64,000 nucleotides of DNA, from the NCBI GenBank assembly GCA_036245525.1, contig BTPG01000004.1, positions 20,564,978 through 20,628,977 on the forward strand, in the 5' to 3' direction. A program made the translations under genes and the position numbers. Below, piece by piece: positions 1,192 through 22,159 of the stretch. This DNA comes from Semisulcospira habei (taxonomy: Eukaryota > Mollusca > Gastropoda > Semisulcospiridae). Numbering within the stretch: position 1 is the stretch's first letter; each line of letters begins with the position of its first letter. The notes beneath the pieces were generated by a model, which had not been told where the DNA came from, made no database searches, and saw only the letters and a list, made by a program, of their open reading frames with translations.

Positions 1192-1230
1192 TTTTTCTTT
1201 TTCTTTTTTTTTTTTTTTTTTTTTTTTCTT
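1192..1230. repeat. poly(T)/poly(A) tract inside DIRS RNase H
   Basis: A run of T with a few C interruptions. It stands where the first catalytic part of RNase H would be expected, so coding sequence was lost there. It produces misleading poly-lysine frames on the minus strand. Confidence 0.85.
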
Positions 1231-2040: not shown

Positions 2041-2164
2041 CGACGTGGACTGGAGGAGGACTGTCGGGCTAAGGCGACTAAGGCGTCCATCCGCCAAGTG
2101 AAGACCCAGGGGCGGAGGTTGAGTCCGAACGGCAATCCTACCGAAGGCGCTCGAGCGGTGCGCA

Positions 2165-6049: not shown

Positions 6050-6055
6050 TGTGCA
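6050..6055. repeat. Polinton target-site duplication, left copy (TGTGCA)
   Basis: TGTGCA immediately precedes the 5'-AG terminus and matches 22154-22159 exactly. Confidence 0.93.
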
Positions 6056-6298
6056 AGAGATAGATAAGTAGACAGGTGATGGACACCCCTCCCCCAATCA
6101 ATAGATTTATTCTAATTAGCACGGTATTTAGACAAACCCACTCGACCAATTACCACCAATACCTTTATTACCTAGCCATTTTAGTTCCACTCCAGAAATC
6201 ATTCAAGCTACGTTTTTTCATCATCTGCCAACCCACGATCATTAAGCCAGATCCCCCATCCCCCCTAAATAATTAATGCTGTCATTGACTTTTTTAAA
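6056..6298 (+). repeat. Polinton left terminal inverted repeat
   Basis: 243 bp, the reverse complement of 21911-22153. Identity stops at TTTTTTAAA, after which the left side reads C and the right side (reverse complement) reads A. A 66-codon open frame in each repeat is the same sequence read twice and is not a gene. Confidence 0.95.
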
Positions 6299-6586
6299 CA
6301 AAGGCTAATTATTCAATCGGCATTTACAGTTTTACCTTTGTCAATGTAAACGACTCATTTACGATCAGCTGTTTTCGAGAAATGACTACTTGCGTCATTG
6401 TGGGAATTCCCGTTAGGCATTATTGCCCCAACCCCTTGGAAACAAAAGGCTAGTTAAAATATCTTCCCGAGAAATACACACCACCCACCCCCACACCCCA
6501 CCACTCGATGCTGTCAGAGTTGGCCTTCCTGAGAATACTTTCTGTTCATACCACCATGGTAAACAATAGTCCTCTATGCCCAAATA

Positions 6587-6591
<5 letters not shown>

Positions 6592-6640
<49 letters not shown>
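6592..6640. repeat. (CT)n microsatellite
   Basis: Dinucleotide run with one TT interruption, between the terminal repeat and its diverged copy. Confidence 0.95.
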
Positions 6641-6700
6641 GACGCCAATAGTTTTACCCCCAGAGAATAATAATGTGGGCTCCTGAGAATCCTATTTAAG

Positions 6701-6916
6701 AATCTATAGATTTATTTGATCCTCTCCGTATTTAAACTAACGCGCTCCAGCACTTACCACCAATGTCTTAATCGCCTAACCGTCCTAGTTCCATTTCAAA
6801 AATCATTCAAGCTACGTTTTTTGATCAGCTGACAACACACGATTATTAAGGCAGATACCCGACCCCACCTAAATAATTAATGCTGTCATTGACTGCTTTA
6901 AACAAAGACTAATTAC
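6701..6916 (+). repeat. Diverged second copy of the Polinton terminal repeat
   Basis: The sequence follows the terminal repeat in the same orientation: ATAGATTTATT, then CTTACCACCAAT, then CATTCAAGCTACGTTTTTT, then TAAATAATTAATGCTGTCAT, and TTTAAACAAAG..CTAATTA, with many substitutions between. It lacks the outermost ~40 bp. It lies about 400 bp inside the left end and has no counterpart that I see at the right end. Confidence 0.85.
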
Positions 6917-7070
6917 AACACAGTCAGTATATAGTACTGAATACCTAGTCAAACCGTCACGCGTCACCGGTTTATAACACACACACACACACCCGCTTAG
7001 TGTACATAAAGCGGAACAGCCAGCTGGCTAATTTTGGCTCATCATAGGCGAAAAATCTTTCTCGCACAGT

Positions 7071-7191
7071 GAAGAACATTCTCGATTCCAAAACTGTCCC
7101 CCTACAACTGAAACTGTCCCCACACCACTGAAACTGTCCCCATCAAAACAAGGGGGACAGTTTTGCATTCTAGAATGTTCTAAAGCACGTG
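7071..7191. promoter_or_regulatory. Imperfect palindrome with three AAACTGTCCCC copies and a heat-shock-element-like core
   Basis: The left side reads GAACATTCTCGATTCC then AAACTGTCCCC three times (about 7089-7141). The right side reads AGGGGGACAGTTTTGC then TTCTAGAATGTTC (7168-7180). The outer parts are complementary, so the block can fold. TTCtaGAAtgTTC is three perfect alternating nGAAn units, the consensus bound by heat-shock factor. The left arm GAAcaTTCtcGAt is a near match. It lies about 500 bp upstream of the first plus-strand gene. A regulatory role is inference. Confidence 0.5.
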
Positions 7192-7510
7192 TTTGCTGTT
7201 GTAATCATCCCATAAATAGCGTACATGTCGTAGTTGGCTACACGTCAGCGTTTGCTGATTCACATCCTGTAACCTGTTCCCACGAAAGGGACCGTAAGTC
7301 GCTTTCGGTCGAATGGAGCTACAGGCCGAAAAGAGTGCAGGGGGTCATCTTGGGTTAGTTCGAGTGATCAACTTTAAATGCTTGTTTCTCACTTAATAAC
7401 CAATCTACAACAAGTCTGTTCATCAAATTAATTGGTTTTGATAGTAGATTGTAATGGTGTAAATATCTCAAAACTCAAAATTTCCGACTTATGGTCCCTT
7501 TTGTGGGATA

Positions 7511-7565
7511 TAGAGGTATAAAGTCGACTCACAGTCTAGGATGTTCCAAATGACGTGTTTGCTTA
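7511..7565 (+). promoter_or_regulatory. Candidate promoter of the leftmost Polinton gene
   Basis: GTATAAAG (about 7516-7523) resembles a TATA box. Just downstream, CTAGGATGTTCCAAATGACGTGTTTGCT (7536-7563) repeats, with changes, the block CTAGAATGTTCTAAAGCACGTGTTTGCT at 7170-7197. The start codon of the 97-aa gene is at 7683. Confidence 0.4.
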
Positions 7566-7682
7566 TGAAATCGTTTGCAATACTGCAGGTATAAAAGTAA
7601 ACCAACAGCCAATAATCATTCTTTCCCGATTACATCCGTACCAGTAGGACAGTAAGCAGGGCCAAACGATAGCCAGGCATAA

Positions 7683-7976
7683 ATGGCGAGCCACCAAAAC
7701 AAATATGTTGAGGAAATGGAGATTGGTGAAAAAACGTACACTCAAGCTTTTTTAGACAAGCTGACAAAAGACGAGACTCTTACAAAAAGTCGCCTACGCT
7801 TAGACTTAGCAAGAGCGAAAAATAGAAAGGAAACATGTTTTCAAAACATGAAAAAGACAAAAAAGAGAATTAAAATTATGGTTGAAAAGCTACGTGAGCA
7901 ACAATCATCGTTTGACGCAGCGGTAGCTGACATACAGAGGCTAAAAGGTCTCCTTAAAGAAGAAAAAAGTGGCTAA
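7683..7976 (+). CDS. Small basic coiled-coil protein of the Polinton
   Basis: 97 aa, ATG in the context GCATAAATGGCG. The protein is highly charged, rich in Lys, Glu and Arg, and predicted almost wholly helical. Repeats of K/R and E with regular hydrophobic residues from about residue 40 to 95 (KKRIKIMVEKLREQQ) suggest a coiled coil. I recognise no family. It is the leftmost gene, alone on the plus strand behind a 1.3-kb non-coding leader that holds the heat-shock-like motif, so its expression may differ from the capsid genes. A regulatory or DNA-binding role is possible but not shown. Confidence 0.6.
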   Translation: MASHQNKYVEEMEIGEKTYTQAFLDKLTKDETLTKSRLRLDLARAKNRKETCFQNMKKTKKRIKIMVEKLREQQSSFDAAVADIQRLKGLLKEEKSG

Positions 7977-8719
7977 ATGTGGCTGTAGTTTTTTCTACAC
8001 GTCTTTGGCATACCTCGCGAGGGGGAGCCATAAATACCTTCTAGGTATTCTGATGAGACCTAACAGGTTGAAATGGCTCACAGGTTAGTACTCTATTTTT
8101 CATAGTTTGAGATCTTTCTTTCTCATATGGTGTGAAATATGTGACACTAACCTTTGAAAGCTCTGACATTTCCAAATCAACTCCAGCGTTATCCAGGGCC
8201 TTTTGAAAGCATTTGTGTACCCAGGTAAGGGAACTGTGTAATTTAGTGTAACACATGACCGCTTTTGAATACCAGGAAGGTGTTCGCTTTCAATAGGCGT
8301 GTAGTGAAATAAACACCATTACAAGTAGGGACAGGAATATCAGAGATAGACGGAAGGGGACTTCACCCCCGCGCTGGGAAAAAAAGTAAATTACAAGTAC
8401 ATGATAAGGTAACCTATAAGTTACTTTCAACTGACACATAACTTATAGGTTACCTTATCATGTACTTGCAAGTTAGTTGTCACAAATTCTTATAAGTGAC
8501 TTAAAATAAGAACTTATAAGAACCTAAACATAAGAACTTGTAAGTTCTTAACCCAAGTCACAACTTACTTGGACAGAATTTCCAAGTTACAAGGACAACA
8601 AGAAAACTTTTTTTCTCAGTAGTACTCTGGTGGTGGGGCTGATGGCATCAAATGAGCAGGCATGACATCTCTTTGTGAAGAGTATTTCAGAATTAATGAA
8701 TGATTACCAAAACTGATCT
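7977..8719. other. Non-coding spacer between convergent Polinton genes
   Basis: No convincing gene. A 71-codon minus-strand frame (8041-8256) has no supporting features. The right part (8390-8600) is full of inverted repeats, listed separately. Confidence 0.5.
8394..8468. repeat. Perfect 30-bp inverted repeat with 15-nt loop
   Basis: Arms 8394-8423 and 8439-8468 are exact reverse complements. Downstream to about 8590 the arm motif recurs in shorter palindromes (CTTATAAG, AACTTGTAAGTT). It lies between convergent genes, where a bidirectional 3' end signal or a replication-related structure could sit; function is inference. Confidence 0.9.
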
Positions 8720-9355
8720 TTACTTGCCTAACAGTCCGTAAACTTTTTTCATAGTTTCTTCTACGCCTATTTTCTTTCCTTCCTCTAAAAAAGATTGCTT
8801 TAGCTCTTCAACATTCGCGGGTTGACTACGCATCTTATTCTGTATTTCAGACTTCTGTTGCTTGTAATTTGCTAAATCATCCTGGACTCTTTTAAATTCG
8901 TTATCGTCAATTTCATTATTTTCCAAAGCCTTACTAATAATAAGTTTCATACTCGTCAGCTTAGCTGCTGCGAGCGTACTTAATGCTTCATGCTTCTGCA
9001 ACTTCATATAAAATCTTTTGTTAATAGCTTCCATACCAAAGCATGCTAGACTTGTGACAAGACCAATACCTTCAACAGCAATTCCTATAACACTTCCCAC
9101 CCCCGTTGCAAAAAGAGTTATACCTCCTACAGATAATCCGGCCGAAACCACCCCCATGGCCATTGATGTGTTGTGTACAGAATTGAAAACCGTATTGTAA
9201 CGGCGTTTACACCTCGAGTATTTTGCTTGTTCTTCTTCCAAATACTTCAACGCTTCTGTAATATTCATTAAACGGAATGAATCTGCCTTTAATGTTTTAT
9301 CACGCTCAATAGGCTCAAGCTGCTCAGGTGGTATTTGTGGATACAAGTTCACCAT
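8720..9355 (-). CDS. Polinton protein with central glycine-rich hydrophobic segment
   Basis: 211 aa; start ATG preceded by TAAATAAAAA. The N-terminal ~60 residues are polar. A long hydrophobic, Gly- and Ser-rich stretch follows at about residues 66-112 (MGVVSAGLSVGG, VGSVIGIAVEGIGLVTSLA), long enough for one or two membrane helices. Then comes a charged helical tail with coiled-coil character (QQKSEIQNKM). Proteins of this kind are encoded by invertebrate Polintons, but I know no assigned function; a virion or membrane-interacting role is inference. It is the distal member of a run of three minus-strand genes separated by about 20 bp each. Confidence 0.75.
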   Translation of the reverse strand: MVNLYPQIPPEQLEPIERDKTLKADSFRLMNITEALKYLEEEQAKYSRCKRRYNTVFNSVHNTSMAMGVVSAGLSVGGITLFATGVGSVIGIAVEGIGLVTSLACFGMEAINKRFYMKLQKHEALSTLAAAKLTSMKLIISKALENNEIDDNEFKRVQDDLANYKQQKSEIQNKMRSQPANVEELKQSFLEEGKKIGVEETMKKVYGLLGK

Positions 9356-9376
9356 TTTTTATTTACAAATATTTTT

Positions 9377-10255
9377 TTAATCAGCAATTACATTTTGCAA
9401 CTCTTCAAAAGTATACAATTTGTTAGCATAATAAAATGCAACAAGATCAATGTGTTCAAGGTTTATGTAAGTTAGACGAACAAAAGTTGTTTTGTCGACC
9501 ACCACCTTGACAGCTGGAACACTGCTCGAAACATTAATAACATCATTATTTTTTGTAATAGCAATAAAGACCTTTGATGACTCTGCCACTGTGTCATTCC
9601 ATGTAAGTTTAATTCCTTGTGCAATTTGAGCCTCTTTAGCAGTAGTTACTGATCTCATGATAATTTCAAATACTATTGTCGCTTCTCTTGCGATGGGAAA
9701 GTTTATTGGTGCAAACACGACCTTCGCATCAGACCTACCCTTCCTATGTGTAAGAAGATATCTCCGTCTCTCATAATTTTCAACTTTCAGTTTTTCTCTG
9801 CTATTGTCGTCTGGGGCAAAGCTTGGAACAAGACTTACAATAAGCGGCCCCGAGTTAACAACCTTCCTAAACACTAAGGCACCTTCGTCATCAGTGTATA
9901 CATAAGGACTAATAAATTCCAACTTTATGTCCCAGTCAATTGTGGGTGGTGGAACAGGCACAGGTGAAACAACCCACTTACTACCTACATGTATTAAGTT
10001 GTAGGGCACATTATTTACAGGTGGAGTAGGTACAGTAACATCACGTAGCTGACCAAGTTTAGGAATCTGTTTTTCACCGTCTTTCATGTCAACAATTACT
10101 TTCCTCTTGTACATGCCATTTAAATCAAGTTCAAAACCATATATTTCTCCAACATCCCCCTCCTTCTCAAAATCCTGTACGTCTGCCAAATCTTTCAATT
10201 CTGTTACTGGACACGCAACTGGTATGATTGTTCGCTTTGGACCAAGACCACTCAT
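9377..10255 (-). CDS. Unassigned Polinton protein, beta-rich, possible structural protein
   Basis: 292 aa from the ATG at 10255 (MSGLGPKRTIIPVACP). The frame is open slightly further, but only via a non-ATG codon, and this ATG has the element's usual TTTATAAAAATG context. No transmembrane segment. The composition alternates short hydrophobic strands with Pro-rich turns (PTPPVNNVPYN, SPVPVPPPTIDWDIKLEF), as in beta-sandwich capsid or fibre proteins. I do not recognise the family. Its position between the 211-aa and 244-aa genes, with short spacers, suggests co-expression with virion-type genes. Confidence 0.7.
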   Translation of the reverse strand: MSGLGPKRTIIPVACPVTELKDLADVQDFEKEGDVGEIYGFELDLNGMYKRKVIVDMKDGEKQIPKLGQLRDVTVPTPPVNNVPYNLIHVGSKWVVSPVPVPPPTIDWDIKLEFISPYVYTDDEGALVFRKVVNSGPLIVSLVPSFAPDDNSREKLKVENYERRRYLLTHRKGRSDAKVVFAPINFPIAREATIVFEIIMRSVTTAKEAQIAQGIKLTWNDTVAESSKVFIAITKNNDVINVSSSVPAVKVVVDKTTFVRLTYINLEHIDLVAFYYANKLYTFEELQNVIAD

Positions 10256-10275
10256 TTTTATAAACAAAAATAAAA

Positions 10276-11010
10276 TTATTTAACTTCTAACACTACACTA
10301 AAATCATGCATAAGAACTGGTTTGTCATCTTGATTAGTTACAGATATACACAGTGACTCAAAGAAACTAGAACCTAATTTCTTAAACTGTAAATTAGGAA
10401 ATCTAACAACCACACTTTCACAATAGGGTGCAGTTCCAGTTGGTAAGCATCTCAACAAAGTTGAAGGTTTTCCATTGTGAACATTCTCAGATGTGTTTAG
10501 TTCTTTCAAATAAACATTTAGCACTGTGTGTACTGACAAATGAACAGCATATCTTCCAGTTATTTTGTTTTTTTTGGGCTTAAATTTTAATCCTGCTTCA
10601 TAAGTCCAATCATCATCACCACTAACAGCTACAATACCAAGATCAGATTCAGTTAAAAAACCCAGTAGTATTAAAAGTTTGTCTGTTAATATAAGCTGAC
10701 TATCTTTTGGAAATTCCAATGTAACAAACAAGTTAGCCGGATTTAAAGTTGCTTTAATTTTATACCTATCTTGTAAAAATTCAGCTATAGTACAAAAGTC
10801 ATAATACCCAGGCTGTAAATGATTAGCGCCCCAACTTGTAGTACCTACCATTCCATGTACAGAATATTCACCATCATCTGTTACATTAAACCATTTTACT
10901 GTATAGAACATTTCATGGATAGCAACAGCCTTGCTACCATCACGATTATCAATCCCATTAGTTAACCACACTGGTTTGCTTGTGTCAAGATTTGTTAAGG
11001 TAATAAACAT
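10276..11010 (-). CDS. Candidate minor capsid (penton-like) protein of the Polinton
   Basis: 244 aa; starts MFITLTNLDTSKP behind ATAATAAAAATG. Beta-rich sequence without membrane segments and with many aromatic residues in alternating patterns, compatible with a single jelly-roll fold. Polintons normally encode such a penton protein near the major capsid gene. The identification is by elimination and composition, not by a diagnostic motif, so it needs structure prediction. The start lies only 24 bp from the divergent 415-aa gene, so both must share a very short intergenic promoter region. Confidence 0.55.
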   Translation of the reverse strand: MFITLTNLDTSKPVWLTNGIDNRDGSKAVAIHEMFYTVKWFNVTDDGEYSVHGMVGTTSWGANHLQPGYYDFCTIAEFLQDRYKIKATLNPANLFVTLEFPKDSQLILTDKLLILLGFLTESDLGIVAVSGDDDWTYEAGLKFKPKKNKITGRYAVHLSVHTVLNVYLKELNTSENVHNGKPSTLLRCLPTGTAPYCESVVVRFPNLQFKKLGSSFFESLCISVTNQDDKPVLMHDFSVVLEVK

Positions 11011-11034
11011 TTTTATTATCTCATATAAAAAAGG

Positions 11035-12282
11035 ATGGAATTTAAATCACCAACCATTACCACTACAAACGCATTTCAATTTAATGTGGATGCCAAATAT
11101 AATGTCGCACCTACTTATGAACAGAAAATAATTCAATTAAATCAACTAGACATAGCTGTAAGCGAACAAGATCTATTCCAAGTCAAAGTACCCAACCCCT
11201 TTGATCATTACCTAAACCCTCCAATAACAGATGACTCAACTGCAAGAAAGTGGTCTTCAAGTCCACTACAGATGTTTCAAAACCAACTCAACTTTGCAAT
11301 ACTATGTTCAACTACAGGCTGTGGTGTTTCATTTACAGACCACTTGAATCACTCAAACAAACTGATTAGGTCTGTCTATCGTTTTCACACTTACTACCAG
11401 CTTAGACGTATACTGTCAGAACTGCATACACCATTACCAACTGAATCCAGTTTCAACAGGTTTAACAACCCCATGGATATGAAAGCATTTGAACGCATCT
11501 GTAATGAATTTAACATAAGCCCTCGGTATGACTTCACACAAAAACTTGATGATCACCACGGCATTGGTACATTGTATTACGCTTTGAGTCACAGACAATA
11601 CCCTCAAGATTATTACCCTGGTTACACTTCATTCTCATCAAAATCACAAGTCTGGATAGGATCAATTGAGCAGAAGCAGACTAATGCGTGGACCACATTT
11701 ATTTTAGATAAATCTGACGGGTTTACTCAAGCAGGAGTCGAGCGCGTAAATGAGTCAATCAGAACATATGTCTGGTGTATACTAGGAGCACAATCACTAA
11801 CAAAATCAAACATTTTGAATGGAAGTGGTAAATTTGAATCTCAAAAACAATTTCTCGCAAATCTAGAAGATTCAATCAACTCAACAGTTGATCTCCCGTC
11901 AAGCATACAGCGTTATCAAGACGTACTCAGATATGCTAGATCAAAAGTTGACTTTGTAGTTGGCGTCGGGTTATACATGTTACCATCTGACCTTCAACTC
12001 CAAATGGGTACAATAACAAATTATAATAATGAAATCATTGTTGCAGGTGTTGGTCAAAAACTCGGTCTCAATCAATCTGTAAACTTAGGAGGAACAACTG
12101 CGCCTGTACTGTCATTAAAATCATTACAGGTGGTTACTTCCCCTGCCCCACCACCGACACCCATACAGTCAGTAATGCCCCAAACATCGCTACCAACCCC
12201 TAACACACATGAATCAGAAAGAACCGCATTGACAATAGGATTAACAGGATTAGGTATATTACTTCTTTACCTGTTTCATTAA
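11035..12282 (+). CDS. Polinton protein with C-terminal membrane anchor
   Basis: 415 aa. A long polar, Asn/Gln/Ser-rich ectodomain-like body is followed by a Pro-rich linker (PAPPPTPIQ) and a hydrophobic C-terminal helix in the last ~20 residues (LTIGLTGLGILLLYLFH), so it is probably tail-anchored. No catalytic motif recognised. It is transcribed divergently from the 244-aa gene and ends by overlapping the 3' end of the minus-strand 418-aa gene by 24 bp. Membrane association suggests a role in virion assembly or entry of the putative particle, but this is inference. Confidence 0.75.
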   Translation: MEFKSPTITTTNAFQFNVDAKYNVAPTYEQKIIQLNQLDIAVSEQDLFQVKVPNPFDHYLNPPITDDSTARKWSSSPLQMFQNQLNFAILCSTTGCGVSFTDHLNHSNKLIRSVYRFHTYYQLRRILSELHTPLPTESSFNRFNNPMDMKAFERICNEFNISPRYDFTQKLDDHHGIGTLYYALSHRQYPQDYYPGYTSFSSKSQVWIGSIEQKQTNAWTTFILDKSDGFTQAGVERVNESIRTYVWCILGAQSLTKSNILNGSGKFESQKQFLANLEDSINSTVDLPSSIQRYQDVLRYARSKVDFVVGVGLYMLPSDLQLQMGTITNYNNEIIVAGVGQKLGLNQSVNLGGTTAPVLSLKSLQVVTSPAPPPTPIQSVMPQTSLPTPNTHESERTALTIGLTGLGILLLYLFH

Positions 12283-13515
12283 ATAACCTATCATTAACCC
12301 TCCTACTGTCACCAAAAAGACCCACACATGCTCTGCCATAAACCCTACTGCCTTTGCCGCTGTACTAATCAACCAGCTGACAACCGTGCCAATTAAATTC
12401 GGTAACGCGTCTACTGCTTTCAGAGCCAATTTCTTAAGCAAGTCTGATATGTGAGACAACTGTTTCTTTACCCATGACTGTAAATCTTTTGGATCTGTGG
12501 GAGCCGGTGGGCCCGGGGTTGGTGGACCTGGCGGTGTTGGACCACCCCCAGCACTGCCAGCACCGGAGACAGCCAACACAGCAGTACTGATAATAAACCC
12601 AAGAGCTGTAATTAAACTAGCAATTGTAATACCCTGCTCTCTGAAAAGTGTTTTCAATCTCTCAGCCAGAGTAGTGTCTTCGTGAAGTATTTTCTGAATA
12701 GTTTCTCTAATTCTGTTGACCTGTGATTTTAGTTTTTGTCTCCCGATACTAATCACTTCTAACCGCCCTGATCTTTCTATCTGCAAATCATTTAATCTGT
12801 GTTGTATTCTTTCTTTCATTTCTGTGTCAAGATTCCCATTGTCTGCGGTAGCCAGTTTCTCTTTTTCACGTTCTATGTGTTTATCAAGCTCACCCAGTTT
12901 GGCAACATTGTTTACCATCTCACCTCTTATTGTCTGCAGTGATTTATCCAATCCTATAATCTCCCTCATTGACAAAGGCGGGTCATCTATTGTTTTCATA
13001 GCATCATTTAATTGACCTTCAGTAAATGAGGTTTCTTGTATCACTGTGTTTGCTATTTCTGGCAGGCTTGTTACTGGAGCCATTTCAATTTCTTGCCCTG
13101 TTGGCAACTTTGTTTGCGTGTCGTGAAGCACACTAACCAGTCTTGGCGTGACAGGAGACCCTCCAATACCAAGTTGACGCAAGGCACTAACACCACCTTC
13201 ATTTTTTATTGTACTTAAAGCCCTAAACCTACTAGGGTCTTTTTTGTTAGTCAATAGTACTTTTCCTTTGTCAACAGTATTTAAATATAAATGACCCTTG
13301 CCATCAAGTTCAAACTGATTAGGGTCTATGTTGTCTGGGCGGCCACCAACATGATCATAAAATGAGTTCACTTTGGTTTCTAAAAGTTCGTGACGTAAAC
13401 TGTAAATATTTCTTGTACCAGTCATATCTGCCATATCTGTCATATCTGTTGTATTACCAAAATCATACGTGTCATCCATTTCAAAATCTTCATGATTAAA
13501 TCCTCCCGCTGCCAT
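12259..13515 (-). CDS. Polinton Pro/Gly-linker membrane protein with coiled coil
   Basis: 418 aa starting MAAGGFNHEDFEMDD. Order: an acidic N-terminus with an Asp-Met-Thr repeat (about residues 24-33); a polar middle; a charged coiled-coil region (about 195-265, LGELDKHIEREKEKLA); an RIRETIQKILHEDTTLAERL block; a hydrophobic helix (ASLITALGFIISTAVLAVSG, about 300-320); a Pro-Gly linker (PPGPPTPGPPAP); an amphipathic stretch; and a hydrophobic C-terminus. From memory, the helix-linker-helix C-terminal half is a frequent signature of uncharacterised proteins in coral and mollusc Polintons. Function unknown. It is divergent from the major capsid gene, with 40 bp between the start codons. Confidence 0.8.
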   Translation of the reverse strand: MAAGGFNHEDFEMDDTYDFGNTTDMTDMADMTGTRNIYSLRHELLETKVNSFYDHVGGRPDNIDPNQFELDGKGHLYLNTVDKGKVLLTNKKDPSRFRALSTIKNEGGVSALRQLGIGGSPVTPRLVSVLHDTQTKLPTGQEIEMAPVTSLPEIANTVIQETSFTEGQLNDAMKTIDDPPLSMREIIGLDKSLQTIRGEMVNNVAKLGELDKHIEREKEKLATADNGNLDTEMKERIQHRLNDLQIERSGRLEVISIGRQKLKSQVNRIRETIQKILHEDTTLAERLKTLFREQGITIASLITALGFIISTAVLAVSGAGSAGGGPTPPGPPTPGPPAPTDPKDLQSWVKKQLSHISDLLKKLALKAVDALPNLIGTVVSWLISTAAKAVGFMAEHVWVFLVTVGGLMIGYLMKQVKK

Positions 13516-13555
13516 TGTTTTATTAATTTATTATTTTTTATTGTGCATAATAAAA

Positions 13556-14845
13556 ATGACACAGTCTTACGGATCAAAGTTAGACCCATACAGAAAACTA
13601 CGTGAGCCCCTGGGTGTTAAGGGCATTCGACAATCAATCGTCATCACAAACAATCCAAGTACCATAGACCAGAACCAAACACTTACAGTCAAGTTTCCAA
13701 ACCTAGGTCCCAGTGACGTTATTGTTCCTGGCACTGCACGCCTTGCTTTTAATATTGAACTATCATCAGACGCAGACGTGAACAGAACACTAGTTAACAA
13801 TCTTGGCAGAGCAATTGTTAGAACTATTAAAGTAAAACTTGAAGGACAGGAAGTGTTTAGTCTTGATGACTCAGATGTATTTTACTGTTACAAAGACCTT
13901 TGGCTCACAAGAGAAGAACGAGAAGACCGTATTTATCAAGGCATACAGCCAGATAATGTTGGTAAACTTCGAATCAATGCCGGAGACAAAACAACTACTG
14001 GGGTACCAAAGGATGTTATTATAGCAGAAACATATGGAACCAGGTTTTACATTCCACTTGAGTTTGAAATCCTAACAGCACATTTGCCTTATTATCAAGG
14101 AGCACTGAATGACCGTCTGAGCTTTGAACTAACTTTCAATGACTACTCCAAAGTTATAAAATCATCTGCCACAGATGCAACATACAAGATCTCTAACATT
14201 TCCTTGGAATATGAGATTGTCACACATACTGAACTAGCCAGACTCATTCAAAATCAGTACCAGTCAAGACTTCCAATTTATTATGACAGGGTGATTAGAC
14301 ATAGTTTAATACCCAAAGACAAAAGCGACCCAATGTGGAACATAAACTTAAACACGCCAGCTAGGTCACTGAAAGGTATTCTTATGTTGTTTGTTGAACC
14401 AGCAGATCCATACAAACGGGATTCAGAAAAATTCTACAATCCTAAGATTACACATTTGTCCTGTACAATCGAAGGCCGTCCTAATCAAGTGTACGCGTCT
14501 GGAATGCTGCCTTATCAACACTACGACGAGATCACAAAGTATTTTGCGGGTGGAAGGATTAGAGATAAACCAGCAAACATTGTGTGTAAAGATTTACATC
14601 TGTATGATGTTAGGATCGGACAATACCTTACAAACAAATACGCACTGTGGCTAGACCTTCGTAGTACAGATGATGATTACCTTCATGGGTCAGGACGAAC
14701 TGTTGAGAATGGTAGTGATGGGATTACAATTCAGATACAAAAGAAGGTTGAAACTGCTGCAGCCATAAACATATATTATTTGTACCTAATTTATGACGCA
14801 CAACTCAATATTGCAGAAAGCAGACTGAGTGGACACATATATTAA
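13556..14845 (+). CDS. MCP: Probable major capsid protein (double jelly-roll) of the Polinton
   Basis: 429 aa from the ATG at 13556 (context CATAATAAAAATG); a longer frame starts only at a TTG. Beta-rich throughout with no membrane segment. Conserved-looking blocks include NNLGRAIVRTIKVKLEGQEV, DSDVFYCYKDLWLTREERED and the C-terminal INIYYLYLIYDAQLNI. The length, the position directly upstream of the packaging ATPase (19-bp spacer) and the long Pro-poor beta pattern fit the hexon-like capsid protein of Polintons/adintoviruses. I identify it by context and remembered similarity to invertebrate Polinton proteins; fold prediction would settle it. Confidence 0.75.
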   Translation: MTQSYGSKLDPYRKLREPLGVKGIRQSIVITNNPSTIDQNQTLTVKFPNLGPSDVIVPGTARLAFNIELSSDADVNRTLVNNLGRAIVRTIKVKLEGQEVFSLDDSDVFYCYKDLWLTREEREDRIYQGIQPDNVGKLRINAGDKTTTGVPKDVIIAETYGTRFYIPLEFEILTAHLPYYQGALNDRLSFELTFNDYSKVIKSSATDATYKISNISLEYEIVTHTELARLIQNQYQSRLPIYYDRVIRHSLIPKDKSDPMWNINLNTPARSLKGILMLFVEPADPYKRDSEKFYNPKITHLSCTIEGRPNQVYASGMLPYQHYDEITKYFAGGRIRDKPANIVCKDLHLYDVRIGQYLTNKYALWLDLRSTDDDYLHGSGRTVENGSDGITIQIQKKVETAAAINIYYLYLIYDAQLNIAESRLSGHIY

Positions 14846-14864
14846 AATTATATTGTGTATTAAA

Positions 14865-15470
14865 ATGAACCTAATGACCCTTGACCCACACTGTGGCTTA
14901 TTTTGTGGTGCGACAGGGTGTGGGAAAACTGAATTTGTACTTAACCTCTTACAAACAAGATACATACACCACTTTGAAAACATTGTAATATTTTGTCCAA
15001 CAATAAAACACAACAAAGCTTATCACAACCGTTTTTTTATTTGGACTGATCATAACATTTACTTAGTTGACCCTGAAAAGAAACTGAATGACTACCTACA
15101 ATATTTTTACAAGCAATTTGAAGGACAGCCAACATTGTTTATAGTCGATGATTGCTCTGCAGAGAAAGACATTGTCAAAAAGAGAAATACTTTATCAGAA
15201 CTTGCCTTCAGTGGTAGACACGCAAACATCAGTGTTTGGATTCTCACTCAGAAATATAATGCTGTACTAAAAGATTTTCGAGAACAGTTAAAGTTTATCT
15301 GTTTGTTTTACTGTAAGGATCGTGACAGCTTCGAAGACTGTCTCAGAGAAAACGATGTTATACCAAATAAACATGAACGAGACTGTGTAAAAAATAAACT
15401 GAAATCAACTAAGCATCTAAAGCTTATTTTAAAGACAGATCAACCCACTGGATATGGGTTAGTAAATTAA
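14865..15470 (+). CDS. FtsK/HerA-type (A32-like) genome-packaging ATPase
   Basis: 201 aa from the ATG at 14865. The upstream in-frame GTG start would add residues overlapping the capsid gene's 3' end and is less likely. Walker A GATGCGKT lies at residues 15-22, and Walker B LFIVDD at about 91-96, ending in two acidic residues. A following conserved Arg/Gln-containing segment (SGRHANISVWILTQKYN) matches the sensor region of the family. The size is typical of the compact packaging ATPases of Polintons, which drive DNA into preformed capsids. It sits in the plus-strand cluster with the capsid protein and polymerase. Confidence 0.9.
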   Translation: MNLMTLDPHCGLFCGATGCGKTEFVLNLLQTRYIHHFENIVIFCPTIKHNKAYHNRFFIWTDHNIYLVDPEKKLNDYLQYFYKQFEGQPTLFIVDDCSAEKDIVKKRNTLSELAFSGRHANISVWILTQKYNAVLKDFREQLKFICLFYCKDRDSFEDCLRENDVIPNKHERDCVKNKLKSTKHLKLILKTDQPTGYGLVN

Positions 15471-15496
15471 TTTATCTTTTGGGTTTGTCTATAAAA

Positions 15497-15892
15497 ATGA
15501 CGGACGGACAAGAGGATCAAAATTGGTCTATTGGTAAATTCATGGATATTACATCGAGTTTCAGGGGTTTTATGCTTATTAGTGACTTAAAAACACAAGT
15601 TAGACGCCCTTTTTCAACACTCCCAACACCGATGAAGATGTACATGACATATAGTTTTTATCTTGGATATTCTAATACTTTTCCACTTTATAATAATAGG
15701 ACAACATATTTTTTAGTTTATGATGCTAAATCTGACTGGTTTAAGATTACGTGTTTACAAATATACAATCAAATAAAAAAAGAAAATAAAAATGTTAAAT
15801 TTATTACTGTCAATAAAACAATATTACACATGCAAAAGCTTGAAGATGATACCACAAAAGACATATCGATGAAGTGGTTTATTAGTTGGTAA
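15497..15892 (+). CDS. Unassigned 131-aa Polinton protein
   Basis: Start ATG at 15497 in the context GTCTATAAAAATGACGG, 26 bp after the ATPase stop. The protein begins MTDGQEDQNWSIGKFMD and is soluble-looking, with mixed alpha/beta composition and many Tyr, Phe and Lys residues; no motif recognised. Position between ATPase and polymerase suggests a virion or replication accessory role, without direct evidence. Confidence 0.65.
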   Translation: MTDGQEDQNWSIGKFMDITSSFRGFMLISDLKTQVRRPFSTLPTPMKMYMTYSFYLGYSNTFPLYNNRTTYFLVYDAKSDWFKITCLQIYNQIKKENKNVKFITVNKTILHMQKLEDDTTKDISMKWFISW

Positions 15893-15982
15893 TTAATTTT
15901 GTCTATTATATAGGTTTTAGTCAATAAAGTGCCATTTACATTATGTAATTTTCTATTTATTTTTTTTGTCGGACAAATAAAA

Positions 15983-18900
15983 ATGGCGGACAATTTTCAA
16001 AGATTAAGAAACGTGTTTCACACAATTGACTTACCTATATCTAATTATTTTAATGTATATGAATCAATAGAAAGCTCTTTTACCGTAATACAAGAAAATC
16101 TTCTTTCTGGTAGTATAAAAATTCAGATTGTTGCAAAAATAGAATTTAGAAGGGAATCTGGACAAGTTATTATTTCATATATTTCAACGAGACAACACAC
16201 AGTTAATTCGAGAAGAGAATTAAAAAGAGTGTTTAGAGAAAGATTGTTGCCTGACTTTCTTGAAGCAATTGATAGGGCAAAAATAAGTGGATCTGGTTGG
16301 CATGAAGGTTATGTACTTGAACTTCAACTAAAGCAGTCAAGATATCATCCTATTTTAGGCAAATCATGGATACCACTGCCGGCAGAGGTTGCAAACAAAA
16401 AGGCTGTAGTCAATATTCAAAACAATGATAATTTATGTTTTATGTGGTGTGTGCTTGCCAAACTGCATTTTGTAAAAATAAAACCTGATCGTGTATCTAA
16501 CTATACCAAATTTGTAAATGAACTCAACTTCAGTGGCATTGAGTTTCCTGTTAAAATAGAGGATATAGACTTGTTTGAAAAACTAAATCCTGGTATATCT
16601 GTAAACGTGTATATATGGGATAATGACTCTGAGAACAAGTTACAACCAATTAGAGTGTCACCAATTGCCCCAACCTACGGACAGTCAGAAGATAAGCATG
16701 TTGACATGTTACTAATAAGCTCTGGTGATAACTTTCACTACACAATTATCAGAAGTATGTCAAGACTAATTCATCATACAACAAAACATGATGGTAAACA
16801 GGAATTTTGTAAAAAATGTTTACAAAGGTTTTCTTCTATTGAAGTGGCACACAAACATGTTTTAAATTGTAGGTCTGTTGATGACGTACAAACAGTACTT
16901 AAGTATCCAGAGCCTGGTACTAAAGTACATTTTTGTAACTATAAAAATCAGCAAAAGCTACCGTTTGTAGTGTATGCTGATTTTGAATCACTGGTTGTTC
17001 CATATGAGGGTCCAGTTCCAGAGTCATTACCAAAGACTATAAAATTGAGTGACCAAGTGGTGTGTTCTTTTGGATACATTTTTGTTATGTCAGACGGTCA
17101 GCATTCAGAACCTGTTATTTACAGGGGAAAAAATGCATCAGCTATGTTTTTGTCAGAAATGAGACAACTGTATAACAAGGTATTTGATTATTTGAAAAAT
17201 TGTCAAAAGACTTTGGTTATGACAGAAGAAGACAAACATAATTTTGATACAGCTGAGATGTGTTGGATTTGTGAACAACCTTTAGAGGGTGATAAAGTTC
17301 GTGACCATGATCACATAACTGGGCGTTACAGAGGAGCTGCACATAATAATTGTAACTTGTTATTAAAAATAGATCCTAAGACATACAAGTTACCAATCTT
17401 TTTTCACAATCTGAAGGGATATGATTCACACATTATCATGCAGGCTGTAGACGAGTCGTACAAAAAAATTAGTTGTATTGCCCAGACAACTGAGAAATAC
17501 TTGACTTTTAGGTTAGATAAATTAGCATTTTATGACTCCATGCAACATTTGTCTTTAGGTCTTGCTAGTCTGGCAGAAGGACTGACTGAGTATCCAATAA
17601 CAAGTAAATATTTTGAACCAGACTTGATTAAGAAAGGTGTCTATCCGTATGAGTACATCGATCACTGGGTAGTTTTTGAAGAAAGGAGTCTTCCACCAAA
17701 AGAAAATTTTTATTCTACACTAATTGGTAAAGGTATTTCTGACTCTGAATACCAACATGCACTTGATGCGTGGGATAAGTTAGGATGTCAGACAATTGGT
17801 GATTACCACGATCAGTACTTGAAAGCTGATGTTTGCTTGCTAGCAGATGTATTTGAAAGTTATCGTGAAAAGGGTTTGTTGCACTACAGTCTTGACCCTG
17901 CTTGCTACATAACTAGTCCTGGCATGACATGGGATGCATTTTTGAAATCCAGTAAGATATTTATAGACCTGTTGTATGATCGTACGATGGGTGAAATGGT
18001 GGAACGTGGATTGAGAGGTGGTATTAGTCTAGCAGCAAACAATTATGGCAAGGCAAATAATAAATATCTTGACGACTTTGACCCCTCAATGTCAAGGTCA
18101 TTTATTACGTACTTAGATGCTAATAATTTGTACGGATTCGCGATGTGTGAATTGTTGCCATTAAAAAACTTTTGTTTGTATGATTTGTCACAGTATGGCA
18201 TAAAAAAATTAACAAAATATATTATGGATCGAGGTCAAAATGATGAAAAGGGTTGGATCTTTGAAGTAGACTTGGAGTATCCACATCATCTACATGATTA
18301 CCATAATGATTATCCATTAGCAGTTGAGAAACTGAGTTTGACTGGGAAAAAAGAAGACACCAAACTTGTACCAAATTTAAATGACAAATTCAATTACGTT
18401 TGTCACTACCGCTTGCTGCAGTTTTACATCAGACATGGGTTAGTATTAAAGAAAGTTCACAGAGGAATTCAATTTGAACAAAGTGCTTTCATGAAAGATT
18501 ACATAATGAAGAACACAACATTGCGTGCAAGAGAAGGTAACACTGCATTTGACAAAGACTTCTTTAAGCTTATGAACAATGCCTGTTTTGGTAAGACTAT
18601 GGAAAATCCTCATCACCGCAAAGATGTGAGACTAGTCACAACTGAATCGGGCGCAATTAAACTTACAAGTAAGCCTCAGTACACAGGGTATAAAGAATTT
18701 CATTCATCATTGTATGCTGTGTCACTCAAAAAAAAGATTGTTAAACTGGATAAGCCAGTATTCATTGGTATGGCAATTCTTGAGTTATCAAAACTGTTAA
18801 TGCTTGAATTTTATTATGATTACTTTAAACCAAAATATCCTGAGTGTCGATTGTTATACGCTGACACTGACTCTATGATCATTGATGTGCCTACTGAAGA

Positions 18901-19426
18901 CTTTTATGAAGACATGAAAACAGAGTTACACATGTATGACACGTCTGACTACCCAAAAGACCATCCACTGTTTAGCACACAAAATAAAAAAGTGCCTGGT
19001 AAGTTTAAGGATGAACTAAATGGTGTGCCAATAGTTGAGTACGTTGGACTGAGATCCAAAATGTATTCTATACTGCACCAGAAGGGAAGTCAGTCGAAAG
19101 CCAAAGGTATCAAGAAAACAGCAATAAAAAATAAAGACATTCGACATGAACATTACAAGCAAGTGTTAGATGGTGCATTAATGCCTGATTATCCAAACAA
19201 GACACTAAGATCAAACAAACATAATATTGAAATGATTCAAACATATAAAAAGTCTCTAGCAGTAGGTGATACAAAAAGAGTGTTTCATAGTAAGGAAAAA
19301 GCTTATGCACCAGGTCATTACAGGCTCAAGTTATCTGAAAAAATAGCTGATGAACTGTTTGATGAACTAATTGATGAATTGAAATTGTTAAAAATGAGTA
19401 ACGGTGTCTGTGGGAATAATCTGTAA
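15983..19426 (+). CDS. polB: Protein-primed family B DNA polymerase of the Polinton
   Basis: 1147 aa from the ATG at 15983 (context GGACAAATAAAAATGGCGG); the longer frame begins with a hydrophobic stretch that looks like untranslated DNA. In order: a C-x2-C..H..C zinc motif (about 275-296); exonuclease motif I DFE (D333, E335); an endonuclease VII-like zinc insertion with CWIC at 427-430 and DHDH..G..RG..HNNCN at about 441-460; Exo II HNLKGYDSH (about 475-483); Exo III YLKADVCLLADVF (about 610-625); polymerase motif A LDANNLYG (D712); motif B LMNNACFGKTMEN (about 863-875); and motif C YADTDS (959-964). All catalytic acids are present. Such polymerases copy linear Polinton genomes from a terminal protein primer. 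The last 39 bp overlap the integrase gene tail to tail. Confidence 0.96.
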   Translation: MADNFQRLRNVFHTIDLPISNYFNVYESIESSFTVIQENLLSGSIKIQIVAKIEFRRESGQVIISYISTRQHTVNSRRELKRVFRERLLPDFLEAIDRAKISGSGWHEGYVLELQLKQSRYHPILGKSWIPLPAEVANKKAVVNIQNNDNLCFMWCVLAKLHFVKIKPDRVSNYTKFVNELNFSGIEFPVKIEDIDLFEKLNPGISVNVYIWDNDSENKLQPIRVSPIAPTYGQSEDKHVDMLLISSGDNFHYTIIRSMSRLIHHTTKHDGKQEFCKKCLQRFSSIEVAHKHVLNCRSVDDVQTVLKYPEPGTKVHFCNYKNQQKLPFVVYADFESLVVPYEGPVPESLPKTIKLSDQVVCSFGYIFVMSDGQHSEPVIYRGKNASAMFLSEMRQLYNKVFDYLKNCQKTLVMTEEDKHNFDTAEMCWICEQPLEGDKVRDHDHITGRYRGAAHNNCNLLLKIDPKTYKLPIFFHNLKGYDSHIIMQAVDESYKKISCIAQTTEKYLTFRLDKLAFYDSMQHLSLGLASLAEGLTEYPITSKYFEPDLIKKGVYPYEYIDHWVVFEERSLPPKENFYSTLIGKGISDSEYQHALDAWDKLGCQTIGDYHDQYLKADVCLLADVFESYREKGLLHYSLDPACYITSPGMTWDAFLKSSKIFIDLLYDRTMGEMVERGLRGGISLAANNYGKANNKYLDDFDPSMSRSFITYLDANNLYGFAMCELLPLKNFCLYDLSQYGIKKLTKYIMDRGQNDEKGWIFEVDLEYPHHLHDYHNDYPLAVEKLSLTGKKEDTKLVPNLNDKFNYVCHYRLLQFYIRHGLVLKKVHRGIQFEQSAFMKDYIMKNTTLRAREGNTAFDKDFFKLMNNACFGKTMENPHHRKDVRLVTTESGAIKLTSKPQYTGYKEFHSSLYAVSLKKKIVKLDKPVFIGMAILELSKLLMLEFYYDYFKPKYPECRLLYADTDSMIIDVPTEDFYEDMKTELHMYDTSDYPKDHPLFSTQNKKVPGKFKDELNGVPIVEYVGLRSKMYSILHQKGSQSKAKGIKKTAIKNKDIRHEHYKQVLDGALMPDYPNKTLRSNKHNIEMIQTYKKSLAVGDTKRVFHSKEKAYAPGHYRLKLSEKIADELFDELIDELKLLKMSNGVCGNNL

Positions 19427-20338
19427 TTCTTCTCTAACAAATGCCCTCTGGGGTGCAGGCTCATACAGATAATATATTGTTGCATTAGCTGAAGGAACTA
19501 TTTTTTTTATATTATGAACAGATGTAGACCAAATTGGATCAGTTGCCCTACGTCTAACGTCATTCTCAGCTTCACCTGGTTGATACAAATATCTTACCTG
19601 TTTTGTAAACAAGCTAGTGTCTGGAGGTGTTGTTATTGCTTTTATTTCTGACGGTATTGTTTTCAATTTAATAGAATCAACAGGTTTAGGGTGACCATCA
19701 TTATTCATTGCTTTTATTACAGACGGTAATCTTTTAACCCACTCAGTGTTACGTGTGTCATGCATGAGTTCCTTAGAATACTGATAGCTAAAAAGTCTCT
19801 CCGATAATTGCTTGTTAAAGTTTTCAACAATTGCCTGTGATCTATGCAAGCCTGGAATACCGCGTCTAACCAGTACACCATGCTTTGCAAATAACTGATT
19901 AACAGCGCCTTTAAATTCACTCCCATCATCAACCTGCACAAGCCTAGGGTATTTTAAAGGACCTCGACTATATATTTTTGATAATGCAGTGGCCACTGTT
20001 ACAGCTTTTTTGTCAGTTATGGGTTCTGCATCCTTATACCTTGAAGCTATGTCAACAACAGTTAATGCATACTTGTATCGTTTCTTTCTTATTGTGTCAT
20101 GTGGAAGAAACAGGAGGTCCATTTGGTGTGTGTCATTAGGTGATGTGTTTTCAAAATGAGGCCTTGTTATTTTTCTTGGAGCAGGAAGATATATTTGCCA
20201 AATTGCCTGTTTTTTAAGCCACTGTTTTATTTGGTTGACATCTCCACCCAAAGCAGCATGTAATTTTTTTATTGCAGTATTCCCTTTCCAGTAGCCAATT
20301 GGGGAGTAATATATTTTTGATAGTTTAGCGTCTGCCAT
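19388..20338 (-). CDS. int: Retroviral-type DDE integrase of the Polinton
   Basis: 316 aa from the ATG at 20338 (MADAKLSKIYYSP); an in-frame TTG 12 bp upstream is not needed. The catalytic core has D74 (HQMDLLF), D137 (QVDDGSEF) and E172 (QAIVENFN), with the 34-residue D-to-E spacing close to the classic D,D35E. The N-terminal part includes a helical zinc-free region, and the C-terminal ~90 residues form a basic domain (VRYLYQPGEAENDVRRR) like the SH3/chromo-type tail of Polinton integrases. It inserts the element and makes the 6-bp target duplication seen at both ends. It overlaps the upstream 143-aa gene by 14 bp. Confidence 0.95.
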   Translation of the reverse strand: MADAKLSKIYYSPIGYWKGNTAIKKLHAALGGDVNQIKQWLKKQAIWQIYLPAPRKITRPHFENTSPNDTHQMDLLFLPHDTIRKKRYKYALTVVDIASRYKDAEPITDKKAVTVATALSKIYSRGPLKYPRLVQVDDGSEFKGAVNQLFAKHGVLVRRGIPGLHRSQAIVENFNKQLSERLFSYQYSKELMHDTRNTEWVKRLPSVIKAMNNDGHPKPVDSIKLKTIPSEIKAITTPPDTSLFTKQVRYLYQPGEAENDVRRRATDPIWSTSVHNIKKIVPSANATIYYLYEPAPQRAFVREELQIIPTDTVTHF

Positions 20339-20756
20339 TTTTTCTAGCAATATAAACTCCTGTAAAATATACTAATGTCATTCCTACTAAAACAAATATT
20401 ATTTCTCCATTTCTTTGTTCTGGGCTTGGTTGGTAGTAGTCACTAAGTTTTGGTTGTGGAATAGACATGTCTTCACCAGTAACAAGATAGTATTCTTTGA
20501 TCGCGTCATCAACATTTGAAAATGTATGCTGTGCATGACCCTCAAGTTTTAGTTTTTCATTAATAAAATCAAGTTTCTCAATTCTTTGCTTCTCATAATC
20601 TTGTTGAGCTTGAGCTAGTTTTTCAGATGCCTCATTGTGTCGCTTCATTTCTTCTGCTGATTCTTCTTTACTAACTTTTGAAAAGAAATAGTTTGATCCA
20701 CTAAAAGCTAATGCGTTAATAACTGCACCGCCAATCATAACAGCTATAGTTGCCAT
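20325..20756 (-). CDS. Polinton two-helix membrane protein
   Basis: 143 aa. An N-terminal hydrophobic segment (residues about 3-22, IAVMIGGAVINALAFSG), a charged coiled-coil region (about 28-70) and a second hydrophobic helix near the C-terminus (about 117-134, IIFVLVGMTLVYFTGVYIA) followed by basic residues. ATG context GTAAATAAAAATATGG. Related small proteins accompany the integrase in other invertebrate Polintons as far as I remember; the role is unknown. Part of a tightly packed minus-strand cluster of five genes. Confidence 0.75.
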   Translation of the reverse strand: MATIAVMIGGAVINALAFSGSNYFFSKVSKEESAEEMKRHNEASEKLAQAQQDYEKQRIEKLDFINEKLKLEGHAQHTFSNVDDAIKEYYLVTGEDMSIPQPKLSDYYQPSPEQRNGEIIFVLVGMTLVYFTGVYIARKNGRR

Positions 20757-20764
20757 ATTTTTAT

Positions 20765-20995
20765 TTACATAGAAATATTTTCTGGAATAATTCCTTGCTT
20801 GACTAGAAAATCTTTTGTTGCAATCGATGCTGTTATAACAACTACTAGCTTAGCACTGTCTTCAAAGTCTAATTTACTAAGGTCTGCTGATTTCATTTTG
20901 AGAAGACTTTTTCCCAACATAGAATATGCTACTGCTAGTCCACTTATTACAGCAGAGTGATAGACAAGGTTCATTAAGTTCTTTGTGTCGCTCAT
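20765..20995 (-). CDS. Small Polinton membrane protein (76 aa)
   Basis: 76 aa beginning MSDTKNLMNLVYHSAVISG. Two moderately hydrophobic helices (about residues 10-30 and 47-65) separated by a charged loop. It ends 8 bp before the next gene starts. Size, start context and tight packing support a real gene. Family known to me only as an uncharacterised Polinton product. Confidence 0.7.
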   Translation of the reverse strand: MSDTKNLMNLVYHSAVISGLAVAYSMLGKSLLKMKSADLSKLDFEDSAKLVVVITASIATKDFLVKQGIIPENISM

Positions 20996-21031
20996 TTTCT
21001 TATACCATAAAAATTAAAATAATAAATTTAT

Positions 21032-21427
21032 TTACTGCATGTAAAATGGGTCCAAAGGTTTTGGAACTGCTGGTAATGTGGAGACTTCTTCTTTTGTTTT
21101 TTGAGTGTTTGATTTTTTGGACACTGTTTGAGTGTTTGGTTTGTATTTTTTATATAATTGGTAACCTACGTAACCAAATCCGACAACAAATCCAGCAACT
21201 ATATATTTTGTAGTTGGTTTTTTCTCACTTTTGGGTGGTTGTGTTGGTTCTGGTGGAAGTGGTGATGGTGTGTTAGTCTTTTCTGTTAATGCTTGAAGCT
21301 GTAATTTCTTTTGTCTGTTATATTCAGCTAATCTTTTTCCAGCCTCTATTCTACCTGGGCTTTTAGTCTTAGTCACTGTTTGAACCTGTGTCAAGACATG
21401 GCTCTGTTGTGGAGTCGTCTCGTCCAT
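21032..21427 (-). CDS. Polinton single-pass membrane protein with basic N-terminus
   Basis: 131 aa. Basic N-terminal region with SPGRIEAGKRLAEYNRQ (about residues 24-40), a Pro-rich linker (SPLPPEPTQPPKSEKK), one transmembrane helix (about 75-93, IVAGFVVGFGYVGYQLY) and a Thr/Lys-rich tail. The GK-LAEYN block is one I associate with invertebrate Polintons; function unknown. Its first 59 bp overlap the 171-aa gene in another frame. Confidence 0.75.
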   Translation of the reverse strand: MDETTPQQSHVLTQVQTVTKTKSPGRIEAGKRLAEYNRQKKLQLQALTEKTNTPSPLPPEPTQPPKSEKKPTTKYIVAGFVVGFGYVGYQLYKKYKPNTQTVSKKSNTQKTKEEVSTLPAVPKPLDPFYMQ

Positions 21428-21884
21428 TTTCTTCTAATTTAAAATTTATTTTAGAAAAATCAATATGACTACTAGTAACAAGTAAGGTTACAGCAGGCGC
21501 AAGGTAATTCCCAAACTTGTAAAACATAAGGCATGCTAATTTGCCTATTGAACTTGAAACTATGGGATTACTTTCAAGGTCGTGTGAAAGGTTTTCACTA
21601 TCAACAGGTAGGAAGTGACTTACAGCTTTTGTATATAGGCAGACAAGAGATCGACTTAAATCACGAGTCATTAGTGAGGCAATGTGATTTTCATATTTTG
21701 AATGAAGCTTGATTAGCTCGTCAGAGGTTAGAGATTCAATATCCTCTATCATGTATTGTCTTCCTAGATAAGTCTTTGATTTGCCTGAGACAATTACAGA
21801 CAAAAGACGCTGTTTTTTCGAGTCCAAGTCTTTGTTTTCTACAGTATTGATATCGTTTAGAAGAAGTAATTCGTCTTGATTCAT
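21369..21884 (-). CDS. Rightmost Polinton protein, 171 aa, unassigned
   Basis: 171 aa starting MNQDELLLLNDINTVE, 26 bp inside the right terminal repeat. A mostly helical, soluble-looking N-terminal half is followed by a moderately hydrophobic segment (about 108-135, GKLACLMFYKFGNYLAPAVTLLV) and an acidic, Asp/Ser-rich tail. The start lies behind CATTATAAAATG. As first gene from the right end its promoter must lie in or next to the terminal repeat. No family recognised. Confidence 0.7.
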   Translation of the reverse strand: MNQDELLLLNDINTVENKDLDSKKQRLLSVIVSGKSKTYLGRQYMIEDIESLTSDELIKLHSKYENHIASLMTRDLSRSLVCLYTKAVSHFLPVDSENLSHDLESNPIVSSSIGKLACLMFYKFGNYLAPAVTLLVTSSHIDFSKINFKLEENGRDDSTTEPCLDTGSNSD

Positions 21885-21910
21885 TTTATAATGTAATATA
21901 ATATTTTTGT

Positions 21911-22153
21911 TTTAAAAAAGTCAATGACAGCATTAATTATTTAGGGGGGATGGGGGATCTGGCTTAATGATCGTGGGTTGGCAGATGATGAAAAAACGTA
22001 GCTTGAATGATTTCTGGAGTGGAACTAAAATGGCTAGGTAATAAAGGTATTGGTGGTAATTGGTCGAGTGGGTTTGTCTAAATACCGTGCTAATTAGAAT
22101 AAATCTATTGATTGGGGGAGGGGTGTCCATCACCTGTCTACTTATCTATCTCT
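21911..22153 (-). repeat. Polinton right terminal inverted repeat
   Basis: Reverse complement of 6056-6298, ending ATCTATCTCT directly before the TGTGCA duplication. Confidence 0.95.
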
Positions 22154-22159
22154 TGTGCA
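22154..22159. repeat. Polinton target-site duplication, right copy (TGTGCA)
   Basis: TGTGCA follows the terminal CT of the element and equals 6050-6055. Confidence 0.93.

Follow-up and report, generated by a model that had tools for sequence, protein, structure and literature searches.

Mosaic copies and discrete versions of a probable penton crown in a Polinton family of the Semisulcospira habei genome

Whether animal Polintons (Mavericks) give rise to infectious particles is an open question: according to the available part of a study on vertebrate elements, Polinton capsid genes were known and particles had not been observed (PMC8097293). This question is raised again by a 64,000-nt stretch of the Semisulcospira habei genome (assembly GCA_036245525.1, contig BTPG01000004.1, positions 20,564,978 to 20,628,977; hereafter the window), in which positions 6050 to 22159 are occupied by a complete Polinton that belongs to a multi-copy family in this animal-like genome of about 2 Gb. 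We found that the copies of this family are mosaics and that one domain of a probable penton protein, which we call its crown, exists in discrete versions, a pattern that bears on the particle question. We consider it likely that the diversity of this presumed crown is kept by selection and that the family travels, or travelled, in particles bearing a capsid.

The original prediction, made from the sequence of the window, had described an intact element with identical 243-bp inverted termini between two TGTGCA motifs, and had named mismatched termini beforehand as one outcome that would refute it. Terminal alignment of the left terminal inverted repeat (TIR; 6056 to 6298, + strand), whose first letters are AGAGATAGATAAGT, with the reverse complement of the right TIR (21911 to 22153, - strand) gave 243/243 identity and 0 mismatches, and TGTGCA borders the element on both sides as a 6-bp target-site duplication (TSD; 6050 to 6055 and 22154 to 22159). 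A repeat search of the window returned the same TIR pair at 245 nt, because two TSD bases pair too, together with a third TIR copy (81-83%), degenerate and partial, inside the left end (6728 to 6911, +). The 15 open genes that had been announced were also recovered: none of the 15 open reading frames (ORFs) used contains an internal stop, and no hidden frameshift was seen in the assembly sequence of the window copy.

Two of these ORFs gave matches above the Pfam cut-off, namely a retroviral-type (rve) integrase (INT; 19388 to 20338, -; rve, 7.1e-11) that also shows the acidic motif positions, and an A32/FtsK-like packaging ATPase (14862 to 15470, +; Pox_A32, 7.8e-16) with the Walker A motif GATGCGKT. 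The ORF at 15983 to 19426 (+) bears motifs that we take to be those of the exonuclease and polymerase of a family B DNA polymerase (PolB), probably protein-primed; no Pfam polymerase model and no PDB sequence matched it. It contains an endonuclease VII-like insert, which was below the Pfam cut-off and was also matched in PHROGs, where a search with 7 proteins gave endonuclease VII three times and single matches to a terminase, a primase/helicase and an unknown family. The major capsid protein (MCP; 429 aa, 13556 to 14845, +) was recognized from its homologues and its predicted fold: 3233 of the 7999 candidate proteins scored were homologous at E <= 0.001, one of them named Major capsid protein in UniRef, and among the matches is one attributed to the sea slug Elysia. 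The predicted fold (pLDDT 75.7) is a double jelly roll (DJR), with PBCV-1 capsid chains as the best PDB matches and the mavirus and Sputnik MCPs lower in the ranking; the MCP had no match by sequence against PDB, and viral contigs scanned with its alignment yielded 37 pattern matches, 0 of them confirmed. The element is thus identified as a Polinton by its integrase, ATPase, PolB motifs and DJR-predicted MCP, and the four functions that the original prediction had read from the sequence (PolB, integrase, packaging ATPase and a capsid candidate) are each backed by motifs, Pfam matches or predicted fold.

No protease family was matched among the ORFs put to Pfam (E <= 1), a search that a strongly diverged protease could escape. 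This is unusual, because an adenovirus-like maturation protease is present in nearly all Polintons according to the available text (PMC4642659); since the protease is not universal, membership rests on other features. Those matched here are the TSD, the rve integrase, the packaging ATPase and, by predicted fold, the DJR MCP. In the same available text, Polinton-like viruses have no protease and, a single exception apart, no rve integrase (PMC4642659), and an assignment to that group is contradicted by the rve integrase of the window element.

We then turn to the relations among copies. When the genome was queried with the MCP, the best 40 of 6326 candidates, the window's own included, were all 96-100% identical, and with the TIR all of the best 40 among 2447 first-look candidates (both ends of the window element being among these 40) were 94-100% identical; only the best candidates were scored in both queries, so that these figures translate into no copy number. 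Comparison with pieces of 9 other copies showed that 9 of 14 ORFs were matched in 9/9 copies, some matches being partial or broken, and that the other five (PolB, INT, g12, g13 and g14, where g numbers denote ORFs without an assigned function) were missing or shortened in one deleted copy, c7_168; the fifteenth ORF, g1 (97 aa, 7683 to 7976, +, no Pfam match above cut-off), was open in 8/8 other copies tested. The deleted copy is an 11.1-kb deletion derivative with both ends (C7:168095315-168106462); none of PolB, integrase, g12 and g13 was detected in it.

Identity between the window copy and these 9 copies, counted per 250-bp bin and copy, was very uneven along the element. At least 96% identity was reached in 94/103 cells at 6299-9549 and in 114/153 cells at 15549-20299 (g9, PolB and integrase), in 23/72 cells over the MCP and ATPase (13549-15549), in 9/34 cells at the right end from 21049, and in 0/144 cells at 9549-13549, where the median was 86.8%. 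In 9/9 copies the minimum, 64-66%, was located at 10549-10799, within an ORF at 10276-11010 (ORF10276). Compared with copy c3_238, the window copy has a synonymous divergence of 0 in g9, 0.015 in g2 and up to 0.445 in g5, a spread so wide that a single shared history hardly fits. Two other copies, c4_156 and c4_93, agree with each other at 98.5-100% in 12 genes; their identity falls to 84.4% in g14 and 91.8% in g15, which is a recent exchange at one end. The copies are mosaics, in which the left end and the replication and integration genes are nearly uniform and the structural block is divergent, and from this pattern recombination occurs between copies.

The lowest point of this profile lies inside one domain of one protein. 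ORF10276 (10276 to 11010, -; 244 aa) consists of a core and an insertion domain, the crown (residues 41-156; 10543 to 10890, -): between the window and 12 intact copies, the core is 93.2-100% identical and the crown 40.5-43.1%. Across 25 intact copies, four crown types occur on one conserved core, which we call W (the window's, 1 copy), I (11 copies), II (3 copies) and III (10 copies), with 0 intermediates seen between the discrete groups W, I/II and III. Proportions of non-synonymous (pN) and synonymous (pS) differences were, for the crown, 0.424 and 0.361 between W and I (core, 0.026 and 0.216), 0.365 and 0.405 between W and III (core, 0.026 and 0.133) and 0.381 and 0.320 between I and III (core, 0.035 and 0.233). 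The 55 pairs of type I copies have nearly the same crown (pN 0.002, pS 0.003) on cores that vary (pS 0.086), so that the crown behaves as a moving cassette; in the 3 type II pairs, crown pS was 0.000 versus 0.132 for the core. Crown type and MCP are unlinked, nor do the types follow the remainder of the backbone: with crown and MCP assigned to one element by inference from their spacing, a crown of type I occurs in a copy with an MCP about 100% identical to that of the window, and crowns of type II adjoin MCPs of 83% and 96% identity.

Finding the W type in only one intact copy of the 25 is also what might be expected if the window's crown were a chimera from assembly or polishing. We regard this as very improbable, since the frame of the window ORF10276 is intact and its core normal, and since a locus on another chromosome (C7:134, L080) is identical to the window protein (100%) over residues 1-75, a stretch that reaches into the crown, and is interrupted thereafter; moreover, the other three types are carried by 3, 10 and 11 copies.

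ORF10276 is probably a penton, as suggested by a weak, low-confidence structural model whose best neighbours are the mavirus penton (PDB 6g42) and a PBCV-1 capsid chain listed only as 6ncl_a6; the two-domain layout of this same low-confidence model resembles a penton with a crown. In Polintons the penton is a minor capsid protein with a single jelly roll, and an adenovirus-like penton base has a jelly-roll core whose exposed insertion domain bears hypervariable loops. ORF10276 might instead be an accessory or fibre-like protein, the true penton then being g3 (9377-10255) or g5, an alternative to which the low confidence of the model lends some weight, as does the number of homologues found, only 2 for ORF10276 versus 3233 for the MCP (g3 likewise has only 2). 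We judge it unlikely, the best structural matches of ORF10276 being viral capsid vertex proteins and its layout resembling that of a penton with crown.

Selection on the structural genes bears on a broader alternative. The ratio of non-synonymous to synonymous divergence (dN/dS) was 0.09-0.20 for MCP, ATPase, PolB and INT, which indicates purifying selection, so these genes have mattered; similar selection is reported in the available text on vertebrate Mavericks (PMC8097293). The core of ORF10276 is also under purifying selection (between types, pN 0.026-0.041 and pS 0.133-0.233). In the MCP, residues 141-160 differ by 37% when type I copies are compared with the window, all other 20-residue bins by <= 10%, and this stretch may be an exposed loop; relative to type II copies, the differences are more widely spread. 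The original prediction held that the element may still move or form particles; the purifying selection on its capsid genes, the predicted DJR fold of the MCP and the penton-crown pattern lend indirect support to particle formation.

One could also think of an ordinary intracellular Polinton, in which ectopic gene conversion generates the mosaic, the crown is weakly constrained and no particle stage is needed. Several observations favour this explanation and, together with the scarce homologues and the low-confidence model of ORF10276, weigh against particle spread: templates for conversion are plentiful, as the many integrated copies show (MCP matches of 96-100% among the best 40 of 6326); no protease was found by Pfam in the ORFs tested at E <= 1; several copies have stops or frame breaks; and divergence also affects genes besides the penton, g5 and g6 containing highly variable stretches too. 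Two comparisons depart from the cassette pattern, crown pS being lower than core pS between types I and II (0.187 and 0.228) and close to it within type III (45 pairs; 0.062 and 0.086). We nevertheless find an exclusively intracellular life rather unlikely, as it has to be set against the purifying selection on MCP, ATPase and the ORF10276 core, against a type I crown that is almost invariant on a core that is not, unlike a simple loss of constraint, and against the discreteness of W, I/II and III without intermediates in 25 copies. Discrete and exchangeable versions of a probable vertex domain on near-identical backbones would be expected of particles under selection on entry, and are less easily explained for an intracellular transposon.

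If the family does spread as particles, the following sequence of events may be proposed. Going by the protein families encoded, replication of the DNA would start at the TIRs with a protein primer, and the rve integrase would insert it and the ATPase package it into a DJR capsid. ORF10276 would be the penton and residues 41-156 its exposed crown; copies meeting in one cell, as integrated copies or as replicating genomes, would recombine, and the diversity of crowns would be kept by selection that acts on entry, on the use of receptors or on the exclusion of related particles, in a family that would spread, or have spread, as capsid-bearing particles. Particles with selected surface types presuppose the penton assignment and an analogy with adenovirus. 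A more specific version, which we put forward only tentatively, is that of Polinton "serotypes", with a shared backbone and an exchangeable penton crown selected at the particle surface: a particle-forming, recombining virus population, at least until recently, whose surface types would be archived in the genome. On this view, individuals would be expected to differ in their crown types, crowns to point outward, and several types to be present in particle DNA.

That adenovirus analogy is provided by HAdV-C89 (PMC6355881), described in the available text as a new type that was recognized because a known backbone carried a novel penton base; two loops of this vertex protein are hypervariable, and one of them binds integrins. 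Human adenoviruses are free viruses whereas the window Polinton is an integrated element, and a few changed residues are named for HAdV-C89 (PMC6355881) while about 59% of the crown domain differs here; a penton fold common to the adenovirus protein and ORF10276 is weakly supported by our low-confidence model. Intact vertebrate Mavericks resemble the window element in their TIRs with AG-rich ends, in having a TSD and in their genes for PolB, rve integrase, ATPase and capsid, as well as in intact copies and strong purifying selection on core genes (PMC8097293). As far as the available part of that report goes, they differ by encoding a protease, where none was found in the window element, and by a TSD of 6 bp, where 5 bp is seen here in 6/10 paired copies; there, pw and not a minor capsid gene is linked to host switching, and crown exchange is not mentioned (PMC8097293).

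A probable replacement of a whole capsid module and modular fibres are already known from two other systems. EMALE virophages of Cafeteria are likewise integrated, TIR-flanked double-stranded DNA elements whose morphogenesis module was probably replaced by recombination; these are protist virophages with whole-module replacement, whereas here one domain is replaced inside a conserved core (PMC8547959). Cryptophyte Polinton-like viruses also have modular, recombining genomes, with variable receptor-binding domains proposed to act in entry, but their variable parts are separate, modular fibre proteins and not an insertion domain of a penton-like protein (PMC12220804). In literature searches limited to open-access full text, we found no earlier report of within-genome penton-crown types in Polintons.

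When did the window copy insert? The original prediction had called the insertion recent; its full termini, TSD and open genes stand, and recency is not demonstrated by the identical termini, as TIR identity dates no insertion in this family. Each of 10 paired copies (window included) has its own TSD, of 6 bp in 4/10 and of 5 bp in 6/10 (c6_88, c4_156, c1_28, c2_24, c7_168 and c2_275). At the separate sites of c6_88, c1_28, c3_238 and c4_156, right-type ends have a common block of differences that is missing from their left-type partners. Such differences between left and right TIRs are inherited and older than the insertion, and since the same ones recur at separate insertions, TIR identity is no clock; we caution against dating insertions of this family in this way. 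TIR position 74 is the same at both ends in 10/10 copies and position 15 in 9/10, which suggests that ends are copied from each other by concerted evolution, a suggestion weakened by the shared ancestry of the copies. A gradient along the TIR (mean differences per bin of 0.60, 0.60 and 0.30 within elements, and 0.47, 0.53 and 1.11 between elements) was rejected as proof of such end-to-end homogenisation, the outer 160 bp varying little within and between elements alike. On two small contigs (C217, L059, and C208, L060), a Polinton end adjoins an identical 12-base flank; the two probably represent alleles of a single insertion, or else a duplicate of it.

The remaining ORFs of the element have no assigned family or function. 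On the left, g2 (211 aa, 8720 to 9355, -) has two hydrophobic segments and g3 (292 aa, 9377 to 10255, -), inside the divergent block, is 91.3-92.8% identical to the 9 copies at the nucleotide level. Around the penton-like gene and the MCP, g5 (415 aa, 11035 to 12282, +) has a C-terminal hydrophobic segment and a putative structural role, and the variable g6 (418 aa, 12259 to 13515, -) has two hydrophobic segments. The coding status of g9 (about 130 aa, 15500 to 15892, +) is doubtful, with a dN/dS of 0.93 at very low dS. Beyond the integrase lie g12 (143 aa, two hydrophobic segments, 20325 to 20756, -), g13 (about 77 aa, 20765 to 20998, -), the variable g14 (131 aa, 21032 to 21427, -; 78-99% nucleotide identity among copies) and g15 (171 aa, 21369 to 21884, -).

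The conserved metabolic gene that had been placed next to the element was not found: 7 ORFs at 5-5371 and 2 at 22402-23689 had no Pfam match (E <= 1 in one search, <= 0.1 in the other) in searches of continuous frames, not of spliced exons, and by eye we take the left-flank frames to be retroelement debris. Inverted dispersed repeats, 98-99% identical and SINE-like in appearance, flank the Polinton at 1751-2041 and 24458-24747; a larger outer transposon delimited by them was considered and rejected, as by eye they are two dispersed repeats in opposite orientation, with CAATCAATC tails. Further to the right, a DDE_Tnp_4/HTH_Tnp_4 transposase gene (-) stands next to a YqaJ-type nuclease gene (+) at 25564-27834, a pair that we presume to be a separate ISL2EU-like DNA transposon, and a reverse transcriptase is found at 47952-49667. 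MITE-like palindromes of about 80-90 bp occur at 22246-22337 and at 8 more places up to 61588, with 66-84% identity to the reference copy, and a second family of repeats has 11 copies between 34279 and 63862.

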